Shown piece after piece: positions 1 through 12,720 of a stretch of 64,000 nt of DNA (position 1 is its first letter; every line of letters starts with the position of its first letter). The stretch spans positions 1-64,000 of the forward strand of contig OY978102.1 in NCBI GenBank assembly GCA_963854735.1, in the 5' to 3' direction. The stretch is from Marvania coccoides (lineage: Eukaryota > Chlorophyta > Trebouxiophyceae > Chlorellales > Chlorellaceae). The position numbers and the translations under genes were made by a program. Below the pieces are notes generated by a model. The model ran no database searches and had not been told where the DNA came from. It saw nothing but the letters and a program-made list of their open reading frames with translations.

Positions 1-352
1 CCTAAACCCTAAACCCTAAACCCTAAACCCTAAACCCTAAACCCTAAACCCTAAACCCTAAACCCTAAACCCTAAACCCTAAACCCTAAACCCTAAACCC
101 TAAACCCTAAACCCTAAACCCTAAACCCTAAAACCTAAAACCTAAACCCTAAACCCTAAACCCTAAACCCTAAACCCTAAAACCCTAAACCCTAAACCCT
201 AAACCCTAAACCCTAAACCCTAAACCCTAAACCTAAAAACTAAAACCTAAACCCTAAACCCTAAACCCTAAAAACTAAGCCCTAAAAACCTAAAAAACCT
301 AAACCCTAAAACCTAAACCCTAAAACCTAAACCCTAAACCCTAAAACCCTAA
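1..352. repeat. Telomere, CCCTAAA repeat (C-rich strand)
   Basis: This is an uninterrupted CCCTAAA array for about the first 125 bases. After that come degenerate units (CCTAAAA, CCCTAAAA, CCTAAAAA) mixed with canonical ones up to about 352. The C-rich strand reads inward, so the physical chromosome end is at the left. The 7-base unit is the TTTAGGG type known from land plants and trebouxiophyte algae. The interior variant zone is the usual decay pattern of proximal telomere repeats. Confidence 0.98.
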
Positions 353-872
353 TCCTCCCGGACCCGCTTCCCCGTGGCCCGCCGGCCGCATCGTCTGAAC
401 GCATGTTGGCGTGCACACTTTCGGCGCCTCTGCGCGTCCCCTCGAGGAGGCAACTTTTCAATTTCGAGATGCAATTACATTTTTGCGAAGGGAGTTCAAA
501 ATGCCGGGGTTTTCAACCTGGCCGCGTTAAAGCTCCTGGTTTTATTGCAACTCGCGAGTTTTTCTCCTCTCGTCTCCATATCACGTAGTTGCCCTTGCAT
601 CCAACAGCGATTTTCAATCTTTCATCCGAGAATATTATTCTTTTCGCTTGTCGGTACTTTCAAGAGCGTCGAATGGCTCAGATAGTCTTTCGACATTTGG
701 GCTGTCGCAATTCTTTGAATGTGGAAAACGAAATAAACAGCTTGCCTAAATGCTGTCAATTTGCTCCAAAATGCATTTCCAAGTGCACTGACTTTTATTA
801 GGTGTCTCAACAATTCAATGTATGTATTTGGGGGACAGAATTAAGTTAGGAAATTGCCGTACATAATTTTGT
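353..872. other. Subtelomeric spacer, no supported gene
   Basis: Only short reading frames with no family resemblance occur here, and the longest begins at GTG rather than ATG. I see no splice-linked coding structure, RNA gene or terminal repeat. It may be chromosome-end sequence shared with other telomeres, which the window cannot show. Confidence 0.5.
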
Positions 873-908
873 GTTTGGAGGTTTGGAGGTTTGGAGGTTT
901 GGAGGTTT
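873..908 (+). repeat. Short tandem repeat, 8-base unit
   Basis: About four to five copies of GTTTGGAG lie head to tail. They abut the left border of the dispersed repeat that starts at about 903. The second copy of that repeat at 62285 lacks the array, so it belongs to this locus rather than to the repeat family. Confidence 0.85.
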
Positions 909-1103
909 TACATATGGTTGTAACGTCTACTACCAAGGTTGGTGCAAGCCGACGTGCCACTCACCCCGCCACAGTAAGGCGGAGTACCCCCTTCCATCCG
1001 TGGGATCAACCTCAGGTACTGGGGGCGTACGGATACAGCATTACGCCGATACCGCACCGTCGCCCACAATGTAAGACTCTGGCCCCTGTCTTCCTGAGTC
1101 CCC
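903..1103 (+). repeat. Dispersed repeat, copy 1
   Basis: About 200 bases are closely matched by 62285-62495 in the same orientation. Both copies start with AGGTTTTACATATGG and end with TTCCTGAGTCCC. The central block from the CCGCCACAGTAAGGC segment to the end differs at only a few positions. The most diverged part is just after the left border, where copy 2 carries about ten extra bases. No long open frame is shared and I do not recognise the family. It could be the end of a transposable element or a structured non-coding repeat. Confidence 0.85.
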
Positions 1104-1785
1104 CACCGGCGCGACCGACATGAATAAAAGAAAGAGGAAAAAAAAATTGGGGAAAGCAGGACTCTCCGGACGGCAAACGGCCCGTCCGGTTTGGGGTTCG
1201 CGCTTGGGCAATGCTGGCCCGCCCAGCACCCCTCCCATCTACAGCGGTCACTCAACCCCTGGCTTAAGGGTTTATGGTGTACTACCCGGTGTGCTCACTG
1301 GAAATGTGGCACCCGCCATTTGTACCCGTCCGATAGAGACTACGATACCACGGGGAAGTGAAGCATCCGACGTCGCAGTGCAGTAAACAACCTGTAGTAC
1401 TATCGGTAATAGCTCGTGCGATTGGTTCACTATTAATTTTTCGCCGCAAGAATGATGGTAATTTTATATACCACCTTCACTATTCTCATGTACTAGAAAG
1501 GGAAGTTTGTAATTTTCTGCGCTACGCTATATATATTTTTTATTATTATTTGGTAAGTACCACGAAGATGCACAGCTTGTAATCTTGCAATTGTATAAAG
1601 GGCTCTTCAATGTACTACATATTTTTCAGGTGTCCATAGCTGCGGCGGTGTGCTCATAAAAGATTCGGAAGTAGGAGAAAAGTTACGATTGGGAAAGTAA
1701 AAATGTCAGTTTTCTTCATGGACAAGTAAGGACGGGGAGCCCATCCGGGTGCTGTCCTTAAAATACGTATTTAATTACATTCAAT
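1104..1785. other. Subtelomeric spacer, no supported gene
   Basis: Short frames only, with no conserved motif. It lies between the dispersed repeat and the retrotransposon remnant and may include more of either element, but no second copy is present in the window to delimit it. Confidence 0.4.
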
Positions 1786-2130
1786 GTGTATGTACAATGC
1801 CTGGGTTTACAAAAAAGAAACGTCGGAAAAAAATCGGGGAGGTGCAACTTTTTAGGGTTGCCGCATTCGCATCGGACATGCCGCTTGTGTGCTTCTGGTT
1901 CTTGCGAGGACGAAGAGCACATGGTTTTTCATTGCACATGCCCTTCGTTGGTAGCAATGCGGGCATCCTACCCATCTTTATTCCCTGACGCGCCATCTTC
2001 TTCTTCGTCTTCCCCTTATTCTCCTTTGAATCTTTTTCAGTTTCTGCAGCAAGCTCCGAAGCAGGTTGCTTCTTTCATTAAAGCCAGCCATGACGCTGGC
2101 GAGTACGAGAAGCTGCGTGGTTGGATATAA
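1786..2130 (+). mobile_element. 3' end of a degenerate non-LTR retrotransposon (zf-RVT tail)
   Basis: The frame ending at 2130 encodes a C-x2-C-x9-H-x4-C knuckle (CRLC, then EEHMVFHC) followed by a Leu/Phe-rich tail. That layout is typical of the zinc-binding tail after the reverse transcriptase of LINE-type elements in plants and algae. No reverse transcriptase or endonuclease domain lies upstream, so this is a 5'-truncated dead copy, the usual result of incomplete target-primed reverse transcription. Downstream is a T-rich 3' region and a short TGTA tandem repeat at 2308-2327 that could be the element's tail. LINEs near algal telomeres are known (Zepp in Chlorella), but I cannot assign this copy to a clade. 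Confidence 0.6.
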
Positions 2131-2909
2131 GCTTTTCTTTTCTTTTCCTTTGTTATTTTTTTCTCTTTTTCTTTTAGCGGTTGGTTTTTCTTTGGTCTTT
2201 CTTTATTCTCATTTTCATTCATCAATTTATTATTATTATTTCTGCTTGCACTTCGGTGCCAGTCTGCTATGTTGCCTTAGCTGCTTCTTTGTGCGGACTT
2301 TAAACCTGTAATGTATGTATGTATGTAACTATTTTTTTCCAGAGATAAGAAAATTAAACGAATAACAGGCTGTGGTTAAGAACCACGGGGGGAAAGAGCC
2401 AATAATCATATAGTATCGTTTAAAAGCACTTACGAATCCCAAAAGAAACGCGGAAAAAAGCGGATTGTGGTTTCTTCATGGCACAACTTTAGGATTTAAT
2501 GGGATTGAAAGCGGTGGGTTTCAACGATGTATCATTAATATATACGATATTCATTTGCACCATTTTATCAAATGGGCTTTTAAAAAATGGGATATACTCC
2601 ATGACCAGCGACCACAGCTGAATTGCCACCGGAAAGTTTCTAAAATCAACGGATTTCCACCCTCTACTTGCAGCGAAAGCACAGCAGCCAAAGTCAAACG
2701 AGCCCAGGCCTGCCAGTGATGGTATCGGTGAGGGGCGATCACCATATTATTTACCTCAAATTTCTCAACGCATCAAAATTTATTGCGTTTATGCATCTGC
2801 ATCGAAATTATTAAATACTCTATGATATAATTCAAGTGACCCCCCCCCCCCCCCCCCCCCCCGCAGACGTCGCCTCTGCCTGTAGCGGGGGAGGCAGCAG
2901 AGGAGCAGC
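2131..2909. other. Retroelement 3' region and spacer; 23-base C run
   Basis: T-rich sequence with the TGTA tandem repeat (2308-2327) comes first, then AT-rich DNA without a supported gene. A run of 23 C residues at 2840-2862 is followed directly by GCAG. It therefore resembles the polypyrimidine tract and acceptor of an intron ahead of the gene that starts near 2910. Confidence 0.5.
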
Positions 2910-5144
2910 ATGGAGCGACAGCCATGGAGGGCGAGGAAGATATGGATCAAGAAGGCACAGCTGCAGCGGGAGGTGGACGCATCAGCCACGGACCTGGAGG
3001 ACGGGATGACCAACCTGATCCCCAGCCTCGTAGATGATAACATGGTCAGCCTCTAGGATGAGCAAGACGGAGAGCCAACGCCTCCGTCTCACGCAGCGCT
3101 CCCCGCAGCGGAAGCAGCGTCCAAGAAGGAGGAGGTTGAAGAAACCCCCGAGCCTGCTGCCCCGCCCGAGGAGGCTCGGCCCGCGGCTGACGGTGAGATT
3201 TTATAATACTCGCCCAAAAATATGTGGAGAAAACCACCATTTAAATTAAACTCACAGCACACAGCACAGCACCACCATGCATTTCTTCATTTCATGTAGG
3301 CCTACAGCCTCCAACTGCCGGGCTGGCGATGCGAGGAGAGGGCCATCGGCTGCCGCTACCGCGTGCGGCAGGGGCACCATCGCAGCAGCCTGGGGGAGCA
3401 ACCACAAAGGAAGCATTAGGGCATGTGAAGCCCCGCGATGGTGGTGGATCAGGCAGCGAAAACTCGCGCTTGATGGCAAGTCTGAAAATCGGGGGTGAGA
3501 AAAAACTTACTAGATTTTCCTTCTCTTGATAGAGGACGCATTCCAATAGAGTCAACGTCTAGCATCGTACGTGCCGCCTCATTTTTCTACCTCTCACTGT
3601 GTTCTCTGACATCCACTTTTGCAGATTGCCAGCATCGTGAGGTGGCAGATGATGCGATGCGTAAAACAATAACTGTCAAACGCACGCACTCTGTGCAAGC
3701 AAGCCCCGTCACCGCGCTGACAGGGCCGAGCCCAAGCAGCCGTCCCCCGCCTGCAAAGAAGCCTGCTGTGCAAGAACCATCTCCTGCGCCAGCTTCGGAA
3801 GCGGGAGCGGCACCGCGGGTAGCAAACCAAGCGGCCCCCAAGCCCAGCATCGCTTCGTTACACAACTTCACGAGGGTAGGATTTGGTGGTACGTTTTTTC
3901 AGCACGGGCGCGGCTTCCTCCCCGGACCTGCAGCCTTTCACCGCAGCGTTCCGGCGCCAACTGCGAGGCCTATTGACAACCAAACACACCTACCGTCCCC
4001 TGCGAGCTCTGCATTGGCAGTCGATTCCATGCAGCAGCGGTCAGCTTCCCGCAGGCTGGATTTTCCAGAAAGTCCGAGGCCAATAGCTCACGCGGCACCG
4101 GCGGTGGCAGCAGCCGAAGATAGCCGGGCAGCGGATGCAACGGTGGGGCAGGTGCCTGTATAAGCACAAGCAGGGGGGGCATTGCGGCAGCTCACCGACC
4201 ACAGGACGTCGGCAGAGGCAGAAAGGGAGGTGCAGCCGGTTGGCGAGGCACTCGGTTGGCTCCGCCGCTGCCCATGAGCATGTCCCTGGCCCGCGGCGAT
4301 GGGGTTGGTGACGGTGCCGTGGCAGCAAGTGGTGTGGAGCCCCGACTAGGCGTCGAGGTTGGTTATAAAAAATTAATAAAAACATGCGGCTTTGTGTATG
4401 TTCTTACGGAAAATAATAAAAATCGAGAGCTTTCTCTGTTTTGGGGTCAGGCCCGGCTGCAGGCATGTGCAGCAGCAACAGCACCGACCAGAGAGGAGGC
4501 GGCAGGGCAACCTTCTGGCCACGACGGAGAGTTAGAGAAGAGGGATGAGGCCATTGAAGCAGACGAAGGTGAGAATCAAACTAGCTCAAGTTCAAACCTA
4601 ATTTTTTCTGTTATGTTCAATAAAATATCACAGAAATATATTAAAATCTTTACAGACCGTATTTAAGAAATTATTAATATTACCATATTATATATGTTCA
4701 ACATATGACATACATATTTACATAGGTATACATACGTTACAGGGTTGAAATGAAATATATATATACATATATATATATATATGTATTAACATTGCAACTT
4801 TTGCAAATGCAGGGCCAGGGCCGTCATCCGTCGGCGTGGAGAACCATGTGGTTCACCCAGAAGAGTTCGACATGCCAATGGGATACGATGATTATGGGAT
4901 GGGACACGAGGAATACAGTGATGGTCTGATCGAGGAGGTGGACTTGGAATACTCATCGAGTGACGAAGTGCCACCTACGGCGGAGGATCCTCCAGCAGAC
5001 TACGGCCCTGACAACGATGGCATGCTGGCCACCATGGAGGAGGTAGAGGAGCCAGCAGAGGTGGAAGAAGAGAAAGGAATGATTTTTTATATATGTCTAG
5101 AAGGGATGACCCTATTTATTTATTTATTTTATCCTTGGCTGTAG
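2910..5144 (+). CDS. Unrecognised disordered acidic protein, seven-exon model
   Basis: I do not recognise this protein. A phase-consistent model is 2910-2972, 3057-3192, 3300-3494, 3625-4151, 4205-4357, 4451-4568, 4813-5144, giving 507 residues. The internal exons have clear AG acceptors and mostly GTGAG donors. The product is rich in Ala, Pro, Ser and Glu. It has an acidic segment in exon 2, a basic and Ser/Pro-rich middle (exon 4), and an acidic, Tyr-containing last exon with many Glu-Glu pairs and MGYDDYGMGHEEY. There is no folded domain, signal peptide or membrane segment. The first junction is the weak point: between 2973 and 3056 the same frame stays open until a TAG at 3054, so the gene may instead start elsewhere or be a pseudogene. 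Its place next to subtelomeric repeats fits a fast-evolving gene. Confidence 0.4.
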
Positions 5145-5327
5145 TATGGCTGGTGAGAATGTAACAATACAAATAATAGAAGGATTGCTTTGTCCCTCAG
5201 CAGCAATCTTCTACTAATATTTATCAGCATTAGTAGCAGGAATTTCCCAACGCAGCGCGCGCAGGGCCACCGCGTGTACACATCAGCAATTGGCAGTCCA
5301 CGTGCTGCAGCTGTTCAACTGATCTAG
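5145..5327. other. Spacer left of the palindrome
   Basis: This holds the 3' flank of the preceding gene. No coding signal and no repeat matching the sequence right of the palindrome was seen, so no target-site duplication is evident. Confidence 0.4.
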
Positions 5328-5464
5328 CATCTCGATAACTAAAATTGAATGGATGGAACGGGTTGCGGCCCCTGTCCTGTATAAATTGTGTTTGCTTTGT
5401 GTGAAGTGTTACAAAAAAGGTCTTGTTGGTCCTCTTCCTGTTTCTCTCTCTATTTTAATACACA

Positions 5465-5824
5465 ATGGAAACTGCTAAAGCGTTCGTGGGCAGCTGCGGC
5501 CTGTGCAAACGCCCCGGCGTGCAGTTGACCCACGTCAACATTTCAAAACCGACACCCGGAAGGCACCCCAACCTAGCACGAGTTCGCACAGTCTGCCGGG
5601 TGCATGCCAGGGCCACCGACGAGACCTGCTGCTCTCTCTGTGCCCATTCGCTCGATCATGTCTGTGTAATATGTGATGTGTATGTTTTCATTTCATTTTT
5701 GGGGAAAACGAATGGGCACAGAGAGAGCAGCAGGTCTCGTCGGTGGCCCTGGCATGCACCCGGCAGACTGTGCGAACTCGTGCTAGGTTGGGGTGCCTTC
5801 CGGGTGTCGGTTTTGAAATGTTGA
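5465..5824 (+). CDS. Cys-rich small protein, left palindrome arm
   Basis: The ATG opens a 119-codon frame. Its first 62 residues are encoded within the palindrome arm, and the rest crosses the spacer into the antisense of the other arm. The shared part contains C-x2-C (CGLC) and later CCSLC, and the spacer adds CVIC, which suggests metal binding. No family is recognised. The TATA-like element is about 80 bases upstream. The part beyond about residue 75 is reverse-complement readthrough and probably not selected. It could be a real small protein or a chance frame in a hairpin RNA locus. Confidence 0.35.
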   Translation: METAKAFVGSCGLCKRPGVQLTHVNISKPTPGRHPNLARVRTVCRVHARATDETCCSLCAHSLDHVCVICDVYVFISFLGKTNGHRESSRSRRWPWHAPGRLCELVLGWGAFRVSVLKC

Positions 5825-5894
5825 CGTGGGTCAACTGCACGCCGGGGCGTTTGCACAGGCCGCAGCTGCCCACGAACGCTTTAGCAGTTTCCAT
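5688..5894 (-). CDS. Cys-rich small protein, right palindrome arm
   Basis: This is the mirror copy of the reading frame in the left arm. The first 62 residues are identical and it then ends after a short spacer-encoded tail (68 residues). It lacks the CVIC motif that the left copy gains from the spacer. Identity of the coding part against differences in the flanking arm suggests either recent duplication with gene conversion or constraint on the frame. Confidence 0.35.
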   Translation of the reverse strand: METAKAFVGSCGLCKRPGVQLTHVNISKPTPGRHPNLARVRTVCRVHARATDETCCSLCAHSFSPKMK

Positions 5895-6034
5895 TGTGTA
5901 TTAAAATAGAGAGAGCAACAGGAAGAGGACCAACAAGACCTTTTTTGTAACACTTCACACAAAGCAAACACAATTTATACAGAAGGACAGGGGCCGCAAC
6001 CCGTTCAATCCATTCAATTTTAGTTATCAAGATG

Positions 6035-6763
6035 GTAGCAAGGCCGCTCTACGCAACCTGCCACTGTCCCATACGTCGTGGCGGGGAAAATATCGAGATC
6101 AACGGGGCCAGCGCAAGAGCCAACCTGCGGGGCTGTTGAGCGTATATTTTTGTGCAGGTGGGTACCCACGAGCACGAACGACCCCCCTCCACACTTCCAT
6201 CTGCCTGCTCAGCATCGCCAGCTGGCGGCGCCGCCGCCAGCTAACGGCATCGACCGACGCTCTGTATGCGAGCAGCCAGACACCATCAAAACAGAACTTG
6301 GGGTATTATTTTGTGCCCCAACCCAACATCTCCTCCCAAGCAGCTCCACGCGGAGCACGGCAGCCTCGCTCAAGTGCTCGCAGGCAGCAGCAAGCACGCA
6401 AAGCGCCGCACCAACCACGATGACGAGCAGCACAGGCTCCTCGCAGATGGAGGGACAGCCTAGAGGGCAGCTTGATCAGCCCTCTTCTACAACGCCACCA
6501 CCCTGCGCCGCACTCAACCACCTGCTGGAGCCCCGCATCCACCTCAGGCGCTGCAGCCGGTGCAGGGCTGCCACTCCTCGCCACCACGGGTCATGCTCGC
6601 GCGCTGCTGCCCTCCGTCCGCCAGCGGTCAAAACAGCCCCTCCAAAAAAAAACGCGCTCTTACGTTTTTTTTTCTCTCTCTGTGGTTAGATAAACAGACG
6701 TAGCTCGCAATCAATTATATCAGTTTCGCAACAACAAAAAAAAACACGCAGAGCAATCGCGAG
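6035..6763. other. Low-complexity region upstream of the NUP43-like gene
   Basis: Frames rich in Pro, Ser, Thr and Ala occur (for example 6078-6689, opening with GTG rather than ATG). They show no conserved motif and I could not build a spliced model. It may contain exons of a second disordered gene like that at 2910-5144, or the 5' region of the next gene. Confidence 0.3.
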
Positions 6764-8037
6764 ATGGGACGGCCCCATCTAAGCAGACACTTCCTGGCTT
6801 CAAGCGCCAGTTCTTTGGCACAAATCCCGTTCGCTGTGGCCGGCCAAGCAGACGACGCTGGCGTTGCAACCACGCACAACTGCCTCGCGCTGACTGGATG
6901 GAACGAAGATGCGCAGGTGCGTGGAGACTTGGGATTTATATATTCAAACTGTTTTTGATCACTTTTTCCTCTGCGGCGGTCAAGTAAAGATTTCCGTCAT
7001 CTCCCATTTCTTCGAGTACTCGTCGTTACTTGGCCACGCATTCTTGCGTTCAACATTGTTTTCTCACAACCCCGTGCCTCTCCACCCCCAAATACTAAAA
7101 ACAACAGGCGTACCATCTCGCGCTCGCCGATTTTGCCGTGGGATACACCGCCAGTGACGTAGCGGGCACGCCCAGGTTCTCCATCCTCGCGTCCTTTTGC
7201 ACAGCAGCCGCCCCGTCCGCAGTTTCCGCCGCCGACTTGGGCGATGGCAGCGTGGCCCTGGTTACCGCTCTCGCCGACGGCAGCTTGTCGAGACTGCGCC
7301 TCCAGTGCCCCACCGCCCCTGGCTCTTCCCCCGAGACGATTGGCCTCACCGAGACGGATTTTGCTGGCGTAGACTTGCGCCGGTGGTGCACGCCCCACGC
7401 AGCGCCAGCGGCAGCTGTGGCCATCAGCGCAGAGTCGGGGCTTGTGCTGAGTGCTGGCGCAGATGGCAGCTTGGCCCTGACCAAGCTGGATGACGCAGGC
7501 GGAAGCTCAAGCAGCAGTACAGTGTCCCACACTGGCGCTTCGTTTTCGGCCTGCCGGTGGGCCAGCCCCTCCACCTTTGTGACCACGAGCTTGGCGGGGG
7601 CGGTGCAGGTTTGGGACAGGCGCACCACCTTGGCAGCAGCGCAGCACACTTTGAGGGGTCCACCTGGGCAGCCGCGCCAGCCGCTGCTGTCGCTCGAGGT
7701 ACACCCAGCGCAAGCCCACTCGTTCGCCTCTGGAGACGCAGCTGGAGGCATTGCGCTGTGGGATTTGCGGCGCGCGGGCAGCCAGGAGGGCCCGGTGGCG
7801 CGTGCTGCGACCTGTGGTGGTGGCGTGACTGGCCTGGCGTTCGACGCTGCCGGTCGCTTGCTGTGCTGCTCCAGCCAGGGCATGGTGGCGGTGGTGACCG
7901 ACGATGCCGTGCAGGTGCTGCACCACGAACCAGGGGCTGCGGTGCACGGGCTGGTCGTGGGCGCTGCTGGCGCTGCCTCCCAGATTTTTGCCCCGACAGA
8001 TCAAGAGGTGCTCCTGTTTATGGCGAATTTGATTTAA
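6764..8037 (+). CDS. NUP43: NUP43-like WD40 nucleoporin
   Basis: Two exons, 6764-6916 and 7108-8037, join in phase (CAG|GCG) to give 360 residues. The whole protein is a WD40-type beta-propeller. Recognisable repeat ends are VQVWDRR and IALWDLR. The latter follows a LLSLEVHP...ASGDAAGG segment that resembles the corresponding blade of NUP43, a subunit of the Y-shaped (Nup107-160) nuclear pore scaffold. The C-terminus (IFAPTDQEVLLF) also fits the closing blade of that family. Length matches the 350-380 usual for NUP43. The assignment rests on these blades, and another small WD40 scaffold protein cannot be excluded. The gene is convergent with the starch synthase gene. Confidence 0.7.
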
Positions 8038-8311
8038 ATATGTGCATGCAGTACGCAAGCCAGAAAAAACGAAAATCTCCAGTGATCAAGGGGAAAAGGA
8101 TTGGTTTCTTGTGAGCTGATGGAAAACCACGGCAGCATGTCTCGGTGGGTTGGAAAAGAAAAGAAATAAACGTTTAAGAAGAAAAACCGGTATGAAAAAA
8201 GTTATTCGAGAAAAAAAATCGGCTCAACACGACGACGCCCCGTTGCCTGACTCTCACCATCATCACCTCCGTGTCGCCTCACAGTTCTAATAATACTAGT
8301 ATTATACCAGA

Positions 8312-11300
8312 TTACTTCATCGCCGCGTAGTAGAGCTGGATGTAGTCGATGGCGGGCTTGTTCCAGCTCCAGTCCTGCCGCATCACCCGCTGCTGCAGCG
8401 ACCTGAACCAGGCGCGGTCGTTGTACCTGTACAAACGGTAAGAGAATAAATTCAGCACTACGCTTCCACACCACGACTCAACAGCTCAAACCCACCAGGC
8501 GTCCATCGCGCGGTTGAGGGCGTAGTCCAGCGCGCCCTCGTCGGTGCCGTCAAAGTTGAAGCCGTTGGTGGCATCCACGCCGTCTGCCTGCCAGTCGGTG
8601 GACCCCTCCAGCTCCCACGCGGCGCGTGCCTTGTCGTTGTCCACGTCAAACACGGTGTCCTTGAGGCCGCCGGTGGCGCGCACCACGGGCACGGCGCCGT
8701 AGCGCATGGCAATCATCTGGGTGAGGCCGCAGGGCTCAAACATGGAGGGCACCAGGATGATGTCGCACGCGGCGTAGATGAGGTGGCTCAGGGGCTCGTC
8801 AAAGGCGAAGCAGAACGCGGCGTTGTCGCCGCCGTACTGCGCGGCCAGCGCGTTGAACTCGGCCTGCACCTTGGGGTCGGGCGCAGAACCCAGCAGCACA
8901 AACTGCCCCCCACGGTCCAGGGTGCGGAACGCGGAGTGGGCGATGAGGTGGGTGCCCTTCTGCTTGGTCAGCCGCGTCACGACGCCCACCAGCGGCTTGT
9001 CCCCCCACCCGCTCAGGCCCACTCGCCGGCGCAGCTCCTCCCTGGCCGCCGCCTTGCCCGCCTCTGCGGTGTCTGCGGTGTACCCCACCGGCAGGAACGC
9101 GTCTGTCTCTGGGTTCCAGATGTCGGTGTCGATGCCGTTGCGGATGCCCATCAGCTTGGCGTTGTTGGGCGCCACCGCGGGGTTTCCCGCAATCTCCCAG
9201 GCGTAGGTGGGTGACACGGTGGTGAAGCGCTGGCTGAAGTAGGCCGCGTCGCCAATGGCAGCGGCGCCGTAGTTGAGGTTGTGGATGGTGAACACCACCT
9301 TGGGGCGCCACAGCCCGTACGAGTGGTACTCCGTCCAGTAAGACTTTGCCACCTCGGCAGTGGACCAGTCGTGGCAGTGCAGGATGTCGGGCTGGCGCTG
9401 CGTGCGCAGCAAAAATTCCAGTGCAGCGCGGGAGAAGAAGTTGAAGCGCGCGGCGTCGGATGCGCCCTGGTACACCGTGGAGGTGGCAAACAGCCCGTTC
9501 CCGGGCTCAATGAACCAGCAGCGCAGGCCCTCGACGATGCACGAGCTCACAAACACGCGGGTGCCCTCCCACTCGAACTCGGTCTCGTACTGGGTGCCGC
9601 CCAGCAGGGGGCTGGACAGGAAAAAGTCGTAGCGCGGGAGAATGACCTCCACCTGGTGGCCTGCCTCCTGCACAGCGCGGCCCAGCGCAGTGACGACGTC
9701 GCCCAGCCCCCCCACCTTGGCGATGGGCGCCATCTCGGCGGCAACGTGCACCACGTACAGCGGGGGCTCGCTCACCACCGACCCCTCCACTGGCAGCTGG
9801 TAGTCAAGCCCGCTGTTGTTGTCAAAGCGCCCGCCCTCCTGCGCGTCACTAAACACAAAGTCCACAGAGTAGGCGTCCTTGGGCACAGCGACGGAGGCGG
9901 AAAAGTGCTGAGCGCCTGCCGCGGGCGGCGTCATCTCGATGGGTCCCACTCCCTTGGGGTGGCGCCACCTGTTGTAGCCGCCCCGCAAAAACACCCGCTC
10001 TGCGCCGTTGAGCACCGTGTTGGCGGGGTTGTAGGAGATGGTGACCTCCTTGCCGGCGGCGGGGGTGGAGGGCTCGGTGAAGAGCACGTGCCGCATCATG
10101 CGGCGGCGCACCTCCTCTGCCTTGGAGCGGACGGCCTGGCGAGCAGCCTCGCGGGCAGCCTCGCGGGCGGCAGCGGCGGCCTCTGCGGCGCGGCGCGCGG
10201 CGGTGACGCCGGCCAGCACCTCCTTGCGCATGCCCTCTGCCCATGCCTCCACCGTGGCGGGTGCGGCAGGTGGCTTGGCCACCTTTACCCTGTAGTCTGC
10301 CCCGCCGTTGTTGTCAAAGTGCTCGTAGTACTGAACAACAAAGTCAAGGACGGCAGCGGCCCGAGGCACCTCCAGGGTGGCATGCCACCACTCCTCCTCC
10401 TCTGCAGAGCAGCAATGACACGAAGAATCCATTTTGAAAATAAATAAATGAATGTCGAACAGTTGGATTAAAAATAAAACTACTCACCACCGTCGTCTGC
10501 TACTGCTGCTTTGGGGGCGGCGCGCTCCAGCTGCACGTCCTGCACGTCCTTCCACCCGTTGTGGCCCACCTTGAGCACCAACCGCTGGTCCTCTGGGATC
10601 TCAAACCCGACGATGGGGCCAGCCAGGCGGTTGTACATCAGCGTCACCTTGCCGCCAGCCACGGCACAGGCAGGCGACGTACGCCACTGCGCTGCAGATG
10701 TGGCCGCGCCCTCCTGCCACCCAGCGTAGCAGTTTTTGAGCTCTGCCACGAGGTCGTCGGCGCGCTGGGCGTCGGCAGCCAGGGCGGCCTCCTCGCGCTC
10801 AGCGGCGGCCTTCTCAGCAGCCACGCGCTCGGCCTCCTTGCGAGCCAGGAAGGCAGCCTCCTGTTGAAATTAAAGAGACACAGAAAAACACAGTCTTGAT
10901 GCTCAGATCAGCGAGTAAACTACGCCACCAGTACATAAATAAACAAAATGGCGGTCTTCTCACCGCTCTCTCTGCCGCAGTGTCGATCCACTTGTCCTTG
11001 GTCATGGGGCCCTCCACCGGCAGGTGGTAGTTCTGGGCGGCGTTGTTGTCAAACGCGCCCTCTGCGTCGCTGAAGATGAAGTTCAGCTCGTAGGCCGCGG
11101 CAGGGACAGCAAAGGTCGCCTTCCAAAATTCAGTGCCTGCGTCGTTGAATCATGCTCCTCAGAATCCATGCATTTGAAACGAAAAAAGTGTGGGCAAAAC
11201 ACTACGGTACTGCGCTCACCCTCTTGCTTGGCGACCCCCTCGGCGGGCGCCATGTCCAGCCTGTCTGGCACCCCCCCAGCCGGCTCCAGCTCCCAGTTGT

Positions 11301-12720
11301 TGAACCGGGCGTGCAGCTGGATGCGGGGGCTGCTGCCCAGCGCCTCGGTCTGGGCGCGGTTGAAGTACAGCGTGCACTGCGCCCCAGCCACTGGGGTGGC
11401 AGGCACCGTTGCGTACAGCCAGTACATCTTCTCAGCCAGGGCCACAGCGGGATCGTGGGACTCGGCCTCCTTGGTGGCAGCAGCGCGGGCAGCAGCCAGG
11501 GGGTCAACCGCGGCCTTTTGGGGGGCTGCCGGGGCGCGCTTCTTGGGGGATGCGCTGGCAGGGGAGCGGGTGCGGGGCTTACGGCCACGCGCAGTGGAGG
11601 CGGTGGCGGTTATCTTGGCCTCGACGTCGGACCCAGAATCAGAACCAGGCGACTCTGAGTCCTTGGCGGCCACCGCTGCTGCTGCTGCTGCTGCTGGTGC
11701 CGCTGCTGAAGGTGCCGGTGCAGAAGGTGCCGCTGCTGCGGCCGCGGGCTTGACTTCTGCTGCACCTGGGGCGTCAAAGGTGAAGACCACCGCTTCATCT
11801 TTGGGCTTGCCACTGCCAGGCACTCCGCTGGCTGCCATGCTGGAGGCCGAGCCACGGTTGCCCACAGCGGGGGGCGGGTCTGCTGCAAACAAAAAAAATT
11901 ATGAGGGGAATAAAAATGGTCGACCCCAATAAAAAAATGACCACCATACCTGAGCTGCCAAACTTGAACACGAGGGTGTTGTCGCTCTCAACCTCAACCA
12001 CAGCAGCAACGCCACCGTCCTCCATCACGAGGGGGGCAGGCTGCCCCACTTTCTCCTCTGCAACGACCACTTCTTCTGGCTCCTCCTCCTCCACCACTAC
12101 TGCCGTCTCCTCCTCCTCCACCACTACTGCCGTCTCCACAGCAGCTCCACCCACCAGAGGGATGGCAACCCCCGCCTCCACGGCGCGGGCCGACAGCTCG
12201 GCGTGCTGCTGCATGAATTCCTCCTTCTTGGACGCGTCCAGGGCCTCCAGGCGGGCTGCCAGGGTGGAGCGAAGGGCGGCGTTCTCCTGGCGGAGGCGCT
12301 CAACCTCATCGCCAGCCTGCAAATCACAACTCGACCAAACTCAATGCAATGGGCATCTCGATCGCTGGTGATCAACCCTCCCCCCCCTCCCCCCCCCCTC
12401 CCCCGAATCCTATAGAGTTGTTGCATCACAAAATCGTACACAGCTCACCGATGCGTTCACCACAGCTGCAGCGGGGCGAGAGCGCAGCTGCGCCCGCCGG
12501 GTCGACGATCCATCACACACACGCCTGGCTGATGGAATTCCTGGTGCTGGAACGCTCCCTGCACAGCAAAATAAATTTCAGATCGATGCAACAAATCGTC
12601 GACACCCAGGCCACGCATTGGGTCACGTCGGTGCATCAAATTGTTGAAAAACGTACGGGCATTGCAATTGGCATTCAATCCGGCCCGACTGGCCAGGCTC
12701 AGAGCCTTGCCCGCAACCAT
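8312..12720 (-). CDS. SS3: Plastid starch synthase III (three CBM53 + GT5)
   Basis: Eight exons on the minus strand (12657-12720, 12449-12558, 11950-12316, 11220-11882, 10964-11136, 10488-10860, 8496-10401, 8312-8426) give 1256 residues. It transfers glucose from ADP-glucose to alpha-1,4-glucan ends in the plastid. The N-terminus is an Arg/Ser/Ala-rich transit peptide ending near RPAAAVVNA. A Glu-rich, Ala-rich linker carries a tandem ETAVVVEEEE repeat. Three starch-binding CBM53 modules lie at about 345-445, 525-625 and 700-790; the third ends in FDNN...YQLPVEG. The GT5 catalytic half starts near 805 with the ADP-glucose motif KVGGLGDVV. It continues through HCHDWSTAEVAKSYW, FTIHNLNYG and VTRLTKQKG to FEPCGLTQM and ATGGLKDTV. 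The C-terminus (QDWSWNKPAIDYIQLYY) is characteristic of SSIII. No key motif is missing. Confidence 0.97.

Follow-up and report, generated by a model that had tools for sequence, protein, structure and literature searches.

About 5 kb from the telomere of contig C6 (OY978102.1), this green alga carries a recent inverted duplication, of a known kind, of a subtelomeric gene fragment. In the preferred interpretation, the palindrome derives from a truncated member of a Cys-rich gene family, of which the promoter region, 5′ leader and exon 1 have been inverted onto themselves, and we place the probability of such an origin at roughly 0.85. In addition, the predicted folding of a transcript crossing it, together with the Dicer and Argonaute genes found in the genome, suggests that it may be an incipient siRNA locus. 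The window analysed here is the first 64 kb of this contig, within a 22.46-Mb genome of 15 contigs.

The palindrome and its position

The first ~350 bp of the window are telomere repeat, which places a chromosome end at its start. The palindrome is formed from arms of 327 and 330 nt, separated by a 58-nt spacer (Table 1), and is real: arms of ~330 bp at ~99% identity, and the fold z-score given below, put it far beyond chance. The arms are distinguished by four substitutions, at left-arm positions 5327, 5333, 5355 and 5443, and one 3-base indel between 5376 and 5377, leaving an inner 207 bp (5444–5650) identical in both. A first-pass annotation of 5328–6034, made from sequence alone, had described arms of 323 and 326 nt around a 58-base spacer, with three substitutions and one 3-base indel, all of which is exact within those limits (5333, 5355 and 5443, with the indel at 5376/5377). 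Similarity extends four bases further outward, adding the substitution at 5327. The arm alignment also agrees that every difference lies outside the coding part and that the inner frame is the same in both arms, with none of the five differences falling inside the 186-bp frame (5465–5650). The TATA-like box that had been reported for each arm corresponds to a TATAAA on either strand.

Table 1. Features of the palindrome and of related loci. Positions are those of the window unless a contig (C1, C2, C4 or C9) is named; a point marks features without a strand.
Feature	Position	Strand	Basis
Telomere repeat CCCTAAA (TTTAGGG type)	1–352	.	Sequence; 7-bp tandem array 1–352
Left arm: TATAAA, 5′ leader and exon 1 of the Cys-rich family	5324–5650	+	Arm alignment
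TATAAA of left arm, 80–85 bp before ATG	5380–5385	+	Sequence
Part of the putative read-through transcript, folding into a single hairpin	5406–5953	+	RNA folding
Exon-1 frame METAKAF...CGLC...CCSLCAHS-LD	5465–5656	+	Translation
21-mer with one difference to the C1 paralogue (C/T; G:U pair for the antisense strand)	5616–5636	+	
Spacer, the predicted hairpin loop, 58 nt; stop codon on minus strand	5651–5708	.	Arm and family alignments
Right-arm frame: 68-aa ORF ending ...CCSLCAHSFSPKMK, stop in spacer	5691–5894	-	Translation
Right arm: inverted copy of the left-arm segment	5709–6038	-	Arm alignment
TATAAA of right arm, 80–85 bp before ATG	5974–5979	-	Sequence
Family locus, source of the query protein	C1:3375654–3375821		
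Family locus	C2:3000567–3001501		C1 protein match
Family locus (C4-left)	C4:9434–10344	-	C1 protein match
Family locus (C4-right)	C4:2208240–2208437		C1 protein match
Family locus	C9:1286051–1286245		C1 protein match

No other inverted repeat passed in a scan of 193,003 genome bases (arms of at least 50 nt, E ≤ 1e-5, with a low-complexity filter). When the filter was omitted, 33 inverted pairs of at least 40 nt were found in the window, and among the 25 of these that were listed, all except the two palindrome rows are 70–74% matches, mostly between CAG/CTG-type repeats. When the entire assembly was searched at the DNA level with the arms, no second copy emerged, and the only sequence returned was a stretch of contig C1, 62 bp at 81%, matched once per arm.

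A Cys-rich gene family at contig ends

When the 62-aa frame was used as a protein query, one further locus was found, C1:3375654–3375821, at 38% identity (E 0.011). The gene there has a first exon MRRTTVKRGRCSQCG...DETCCSPCAQSLD, followed by a GT...AG intron and more exons, with borders placed by eye. The protein joined from these exons served as the family query and gave at least 14 matches at E ≤ 1, representing at least six loci, including the window. The five other detected loci are all less than 27 kb from a contig end (~26, 24, 10, 9 and 2.5 kb) and all five are directed toward it, a telomere-ward orientation shared by the right arm of the palindrome. Telomere repeats are present at four of the five contig ends, and the C2 end stops in sequence held in common with the ~306 bp tandem array of the right end of C4.

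As several contig ends duplicate one another (C2 and C4-left at 98% over 5.4 kb, C4-right and C9 at 95.6% over 4.2 kb), the five loci are not independent. Similarity of the C9 and C4-right copies to the C1 protein is confined to its exon-1 part (residues 4–66 and 3–66). Window positions 351–12,000 were compared with the five other ends, and at E ≤ 1e-4 nothing was common to them except the match between the arms and C1. The C1 protein matches no Pfam family, and no homologue was found among the 7,994 candidates sharing most words with it, a search that remote relatives could escape.

Other genes accompany the family members. A second small Cys-rich gene (CSGCG...CRDCAE) follows the C1 family gene at a distance of ~2 kb, and has matches to NUDE_C and to the Elf1 zinc-ribbon, both below cut-off. 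Ku-type genes (Ku_N and Ku core), divergent from the Cys-rich gene, occupy C9:1284019–1285496 and C4:2206288–2207706, ~3–11 kb from the contig ends. Remnants of this Ku partner were detected by tblastn beside the C2 and C4-left copies, and by eye beside the C1 copy; another Ku match, at C4:2112526–2114122, lies in the interior of its contig.

Origin of the palindrome

Alignment of exon 1 and its upstream region revealed a leader, start context and exon border common to the family, with the centre of the palindrome near the exon 1 border. The left end of the spacer holds a few further exon 1 bases: of the six bases past the left arm, five agree with the C1 exon (CTCGAT against CTCGAC), compared with two of six past the right arm. 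Since the left side continues the exon and the right does not, the left arm is probably the original copy, a judgement resting on these six bases. Only exon 1 was recovered when the C1 protein was searched against the window by tblastn (E ≤ 1), although the later exons evolve fast and a diverged remnant could escape such a search. The apparent lack of later exons in the window points to a truncated copy inverted onto itself, rather than a pair of genes.

The following series of events can be envisaged. A truncated subtelomeric Cys-rich gene, retaining its promoter region, 5′ leader and exon 1, would have served as the template for its own inverted copy, with fold-back or template-switch synthesis close to the border of exon 1 and intron 1 as the most likely mechanism, and the product would have been a head-to-head palindrome with a 58-base loop. 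The C9 copy contains a perfect 24-bp palindrome at its exon 1/intron 1 border, shortened in the C4-right duplicate, which is a hint, no more, that this border may be prone to fold-back copying. A palindrome of the breakage-fusion-bridge type was also considered and rejected, as the arms stop short of the chromosome end, giving way to unlike sequence at 5324 and 6038; no further inverted self-match was found beyond either position.

A putative source of small RNAs

The TATAAA and leader of each arm point inward, so that a read-through RNA would carry the exon in sense and then in antisense. A transcript starting in either arm and passing the loop would thus form a near-perfect hairpin of ~245 bp, given active promoters. 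In agreement with this, the part of such a transcript given in Table 1 is predicted to fold into a single hairpin with a stem of ~245 bp and one mismatch, at -541.6 kcal/mol against a shuffled mean of -183 (z-score -54.6, 100 shuffles). The hairpin and a pair of convergent messages would be alternative outcomes of the same promoters, as the choice between them would be decided by whether transcription ends in the loop, which could hold such an end.

Both central components of a small-RNA pathway were identified. One Argonaute locus was found (PIWI; C1:121853–122943), and carries the residues that we take to be the slicer tetrad. A Dicer gene is situated ~4 kb upstream on the same strand (both within C1:112000–123000), with Dicer_dimer and two Ribonuclease_3 domains, a Helicase_C match that narrowly passes its cut-off and a PAZ match that narrowly misses its own; the frame upstream of it, where the N-terminal helicase half is expected, gave no Pfam match. 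Three more single RNase III matches occur in the genome (C2:1239853, C2:1522098 and C1:3367346). A search for RdRP had no matches here, and equally none in any of 14 control genomes, hence this absence is uninformative; RDR-like genes have been reported in some chlorophytes (PMC7994812, from excerpts). With this machinery, the most likely working consequence would be that Dicer processes the hairpin to siRNAs, which are loaded into Argonaute and target the palindrome locus and, in the most favourable case, the C1 paralogue as well; we rate this sequence of events at slightly under an even chance. The production of siRNAs from the palindrome, taken by itself, is given the same near-even standing.

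The C1 paralogue stands out as a candidate target through a 21-mer in each arm that differs at one position from its counterpart (C1:3375787–3375807). In 12 control stretches matched in length to that of C1, the best 21-mer differs at 4–7 positions. Across the genome, allowing up to three mismatches, the 21-mer matches only both arms, C1:3375787 (one mismatch) and C1:2230562 (two mismatches), and the backward control pattern finds two matches. In 400-bp stretches of the C4-left and C4-right copies the best 21-mer has six mismatches, and on this comparison of two further copies the hairpin would not be expected to silence the family as a whole. Among the residues identical between the palindrome and C1, 20 of 26 codons agree, five of six inside the 21-mer and 15 of 20 elsewhere, and this codon comparison showed no conservation of the 21-mer beyond protein homology. 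The near-match to C1 is what homology alone predicts, as the product of shared descent.

The suggestion of the first-pass annotation that a transcribed hairpin could feed a small-RNA pathway has therefore gained a single-hairpin fold, a Dicer gene near Argonaute and a 21-mer one difference from C1, with the reservation that this last match is no closer than descent would lead one to expect. Regulation of the C1 gene by siRNAs from the palindrome appears unlikely. A more elaborate possibility, to be regarded as equally doubtful, is that subtelomeric rearrangement has created a silencer of the very family that it duplicates: a newborn, self-driven siRNA gene, in which two inward promoters would each make the same ~245 bp hairpin, whose siRNAs would restrain the telomere-linked C1 copy, in a unicellular alga that may lack RdRP.

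The palindrome could instead be neutral debris: part of a gene, recently duplicated in inverted orientation within a subtelomere undergoing rearrangement, that is either not transcribed or has no effect. Long recent duplications are common to the chromosome ends, as seen for C2 and C4-left and for C4-right and C9, and the C9 and C4-right copies likewise show similarity to the C1 protein in the exon-1 part only. The retention of both TATAAA boxes and leaders, and an inner 207 bp without differences, sit less comfortably with this explanation, which is nevertheless a strong contender that we judge to be plausible, if short of probable.

Coding potential of the arms

The frame of the left arm continues past 5656 through the opposite arm, to a stop at 5822–5824, and is without a proper end; only the right arm has a closed short ORF. 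A protein search with this 68-aa ORF found no candidate relatives, and the one Pfam match to the palindrome protein is far below its cut-off. These results weaken the claim that the arms encode two convergent copies of one small protein: the frame corresponds to the first exon of a family with several exons, the later ones of which were not found in the window, and the left frame runs into the opposite arm.

It had also been proposed that constraint on the frame, or gene conversion, explains the absence of differences within it. The tests applied here use a non-coding difference rate of 4/141, derived from the four substitutions and treated as known. In the 47 silent sites of the frame 1.3 differences are expected and none is seen (P 0.26), a number so small that silent-site identity says nothing. 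Over the whole frame, where 5.3 differences are expected, the probability of seeing none is 0.005, and it is 0.018 when the non-silent sites are taken alone, both values being nominal, post hoc and based on five events. The probability that all five events fall outside the frame is 0.015, and that all fall within the outer 120 of 327 positions is 0.007, again post hoc. The nominal deficit in the frame favours constraint or conversion, on the strength of five events considered post hoc, but the clustering in the outer positions fits conversion or edge effects equally well, and constraint on the frame is thus a possibility rather than a conclusion.

This deficit, the identical frame in both arms and the closed ORF in the right arm are the features to be expected if both arms were functional genes, transcribed convergently and encoding a small Cys-rich protein, whose identity was maintained either by selection acting on the frame or by gene conversion. 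Such a pair is improbable, considering that it would consist of exon 1 only, with one of its frames lacking a proper end, no relatives found in the protein search, uninformative silent sites, and read-through transcripts that are self-complementary.

Artefact and transposon

Palindromes are a known class of assembly artefact, and a chimeric fold-back read, or another assembly or library artefact, could in principle have generated this one. The unlike flanks on both sides, together with the four substitutions and the indel that separate the arms, argue against a simple fold-back artefact, and the arms also stop well short of the contig end; an artefact is consequently considered very improbable. 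The long inverted arms and short centre also bear some resemblance to a fold-back transposon or MITE, with its long terminal inverted repeats, but such an element is scarcely credible, given that no second copy was found in the genome and that the arms consist of a host-gene leader and exon. In addition, no word of 6–8 bases is common to the ~27–30 bases compared at each end; the four words of 4 bases and the single word of 5 that are shared lie partly within the arms and are reckoned to be at chance level, so that a target-site duplication of fewer than 6 bases would not stand out.

Relation to known systems

Plant miRNA genes have been proposed to begin as inverted duplications of their target genes (Allen and colleagues; PMC3237417, from excerpts). 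As in this model of MIRNA and siRNA origin, the palindrome is a head-to-head, hairpin-forming fragment of a protein gene that resembles a gene elsewhere, in a genome with Dicer and Argonaute. It differs from the model, as excerpted, in its occurrence in a green alga, its subtelomeric position and the promoter-like region in both arms, and in that the parent copy was not found in the assembly, the nearest paralogue being 81% identical over 62 bp. In structure the palindrome fits the early stage of the plant inverted-duplication model.

Fold-back formation with a spacer has been described for human inverted duplications (PMC3907307, from excerpts), in which, as in the palindrome, the copies are parted by a non-duplicated spacer. 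The human examples in these excerpts are large duplications with spacers of 766–70,466 bp, in contrast to arms of ~330 bp and a spacer of 58 bp, and, unlike them, the palindrome has arms that end in unlike sequence on both sides. In Chlamydomonas, young miRNAs are associated with fairly long hairpins and imprecise processing, and the authors consider that inverted repeats can feed the small-RNA pathway and regard the majority of young miRNAs as probably neutral (PMC5511227, from excerpts). The palindrome resembles these as a long hairpin-forming sequence in a green alga, but the Chlamydomonas hairpins are known from small-RNA data, and the present one through its genomic sequence.

If siRNAs are made from the palindrome, it would illustrate, with few mutations so far, how a gene fragment becomes a small-RNA locus, and would do so in the compact genome of an alga for which one Argonaute locus and one double-RNase III locus were found. 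The model in which small-RNA genes arise by inverted duplication could then be tested outside land plants, and their origin would be tied to subtelomeric rearrangement. If no siRNAs are made, the locus offers a clean case of a small inverted duplication beside a telomere.

Other features of the window

Scans of the window with Rfam (at gathering scores) and for tRNAs found nothing. A bacterial-type promoter scan predicted no promoter, and the corresponding terminator scan predicted one terminator-like site against 1.2 expected; both models are bacterial and uninformative for an alga. Positions 1762–2130 contain a Cys/His-rich frame (CRLCASGSCEDEEHMVFHC), without a match in Pfam, which resembles what we presume to be the tail of a LINE reverse transcriptase. 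The window also includes a starch synthase gene on the minus strand, around 8486–10483, which makes a trebouxiophyte the likely source and is closest to proteins of green algae: an ENA protein at 81%, an entry labelled Picsp_1, presumably from Picochlorum, at 72%, and a Micractinium protein at 70%.
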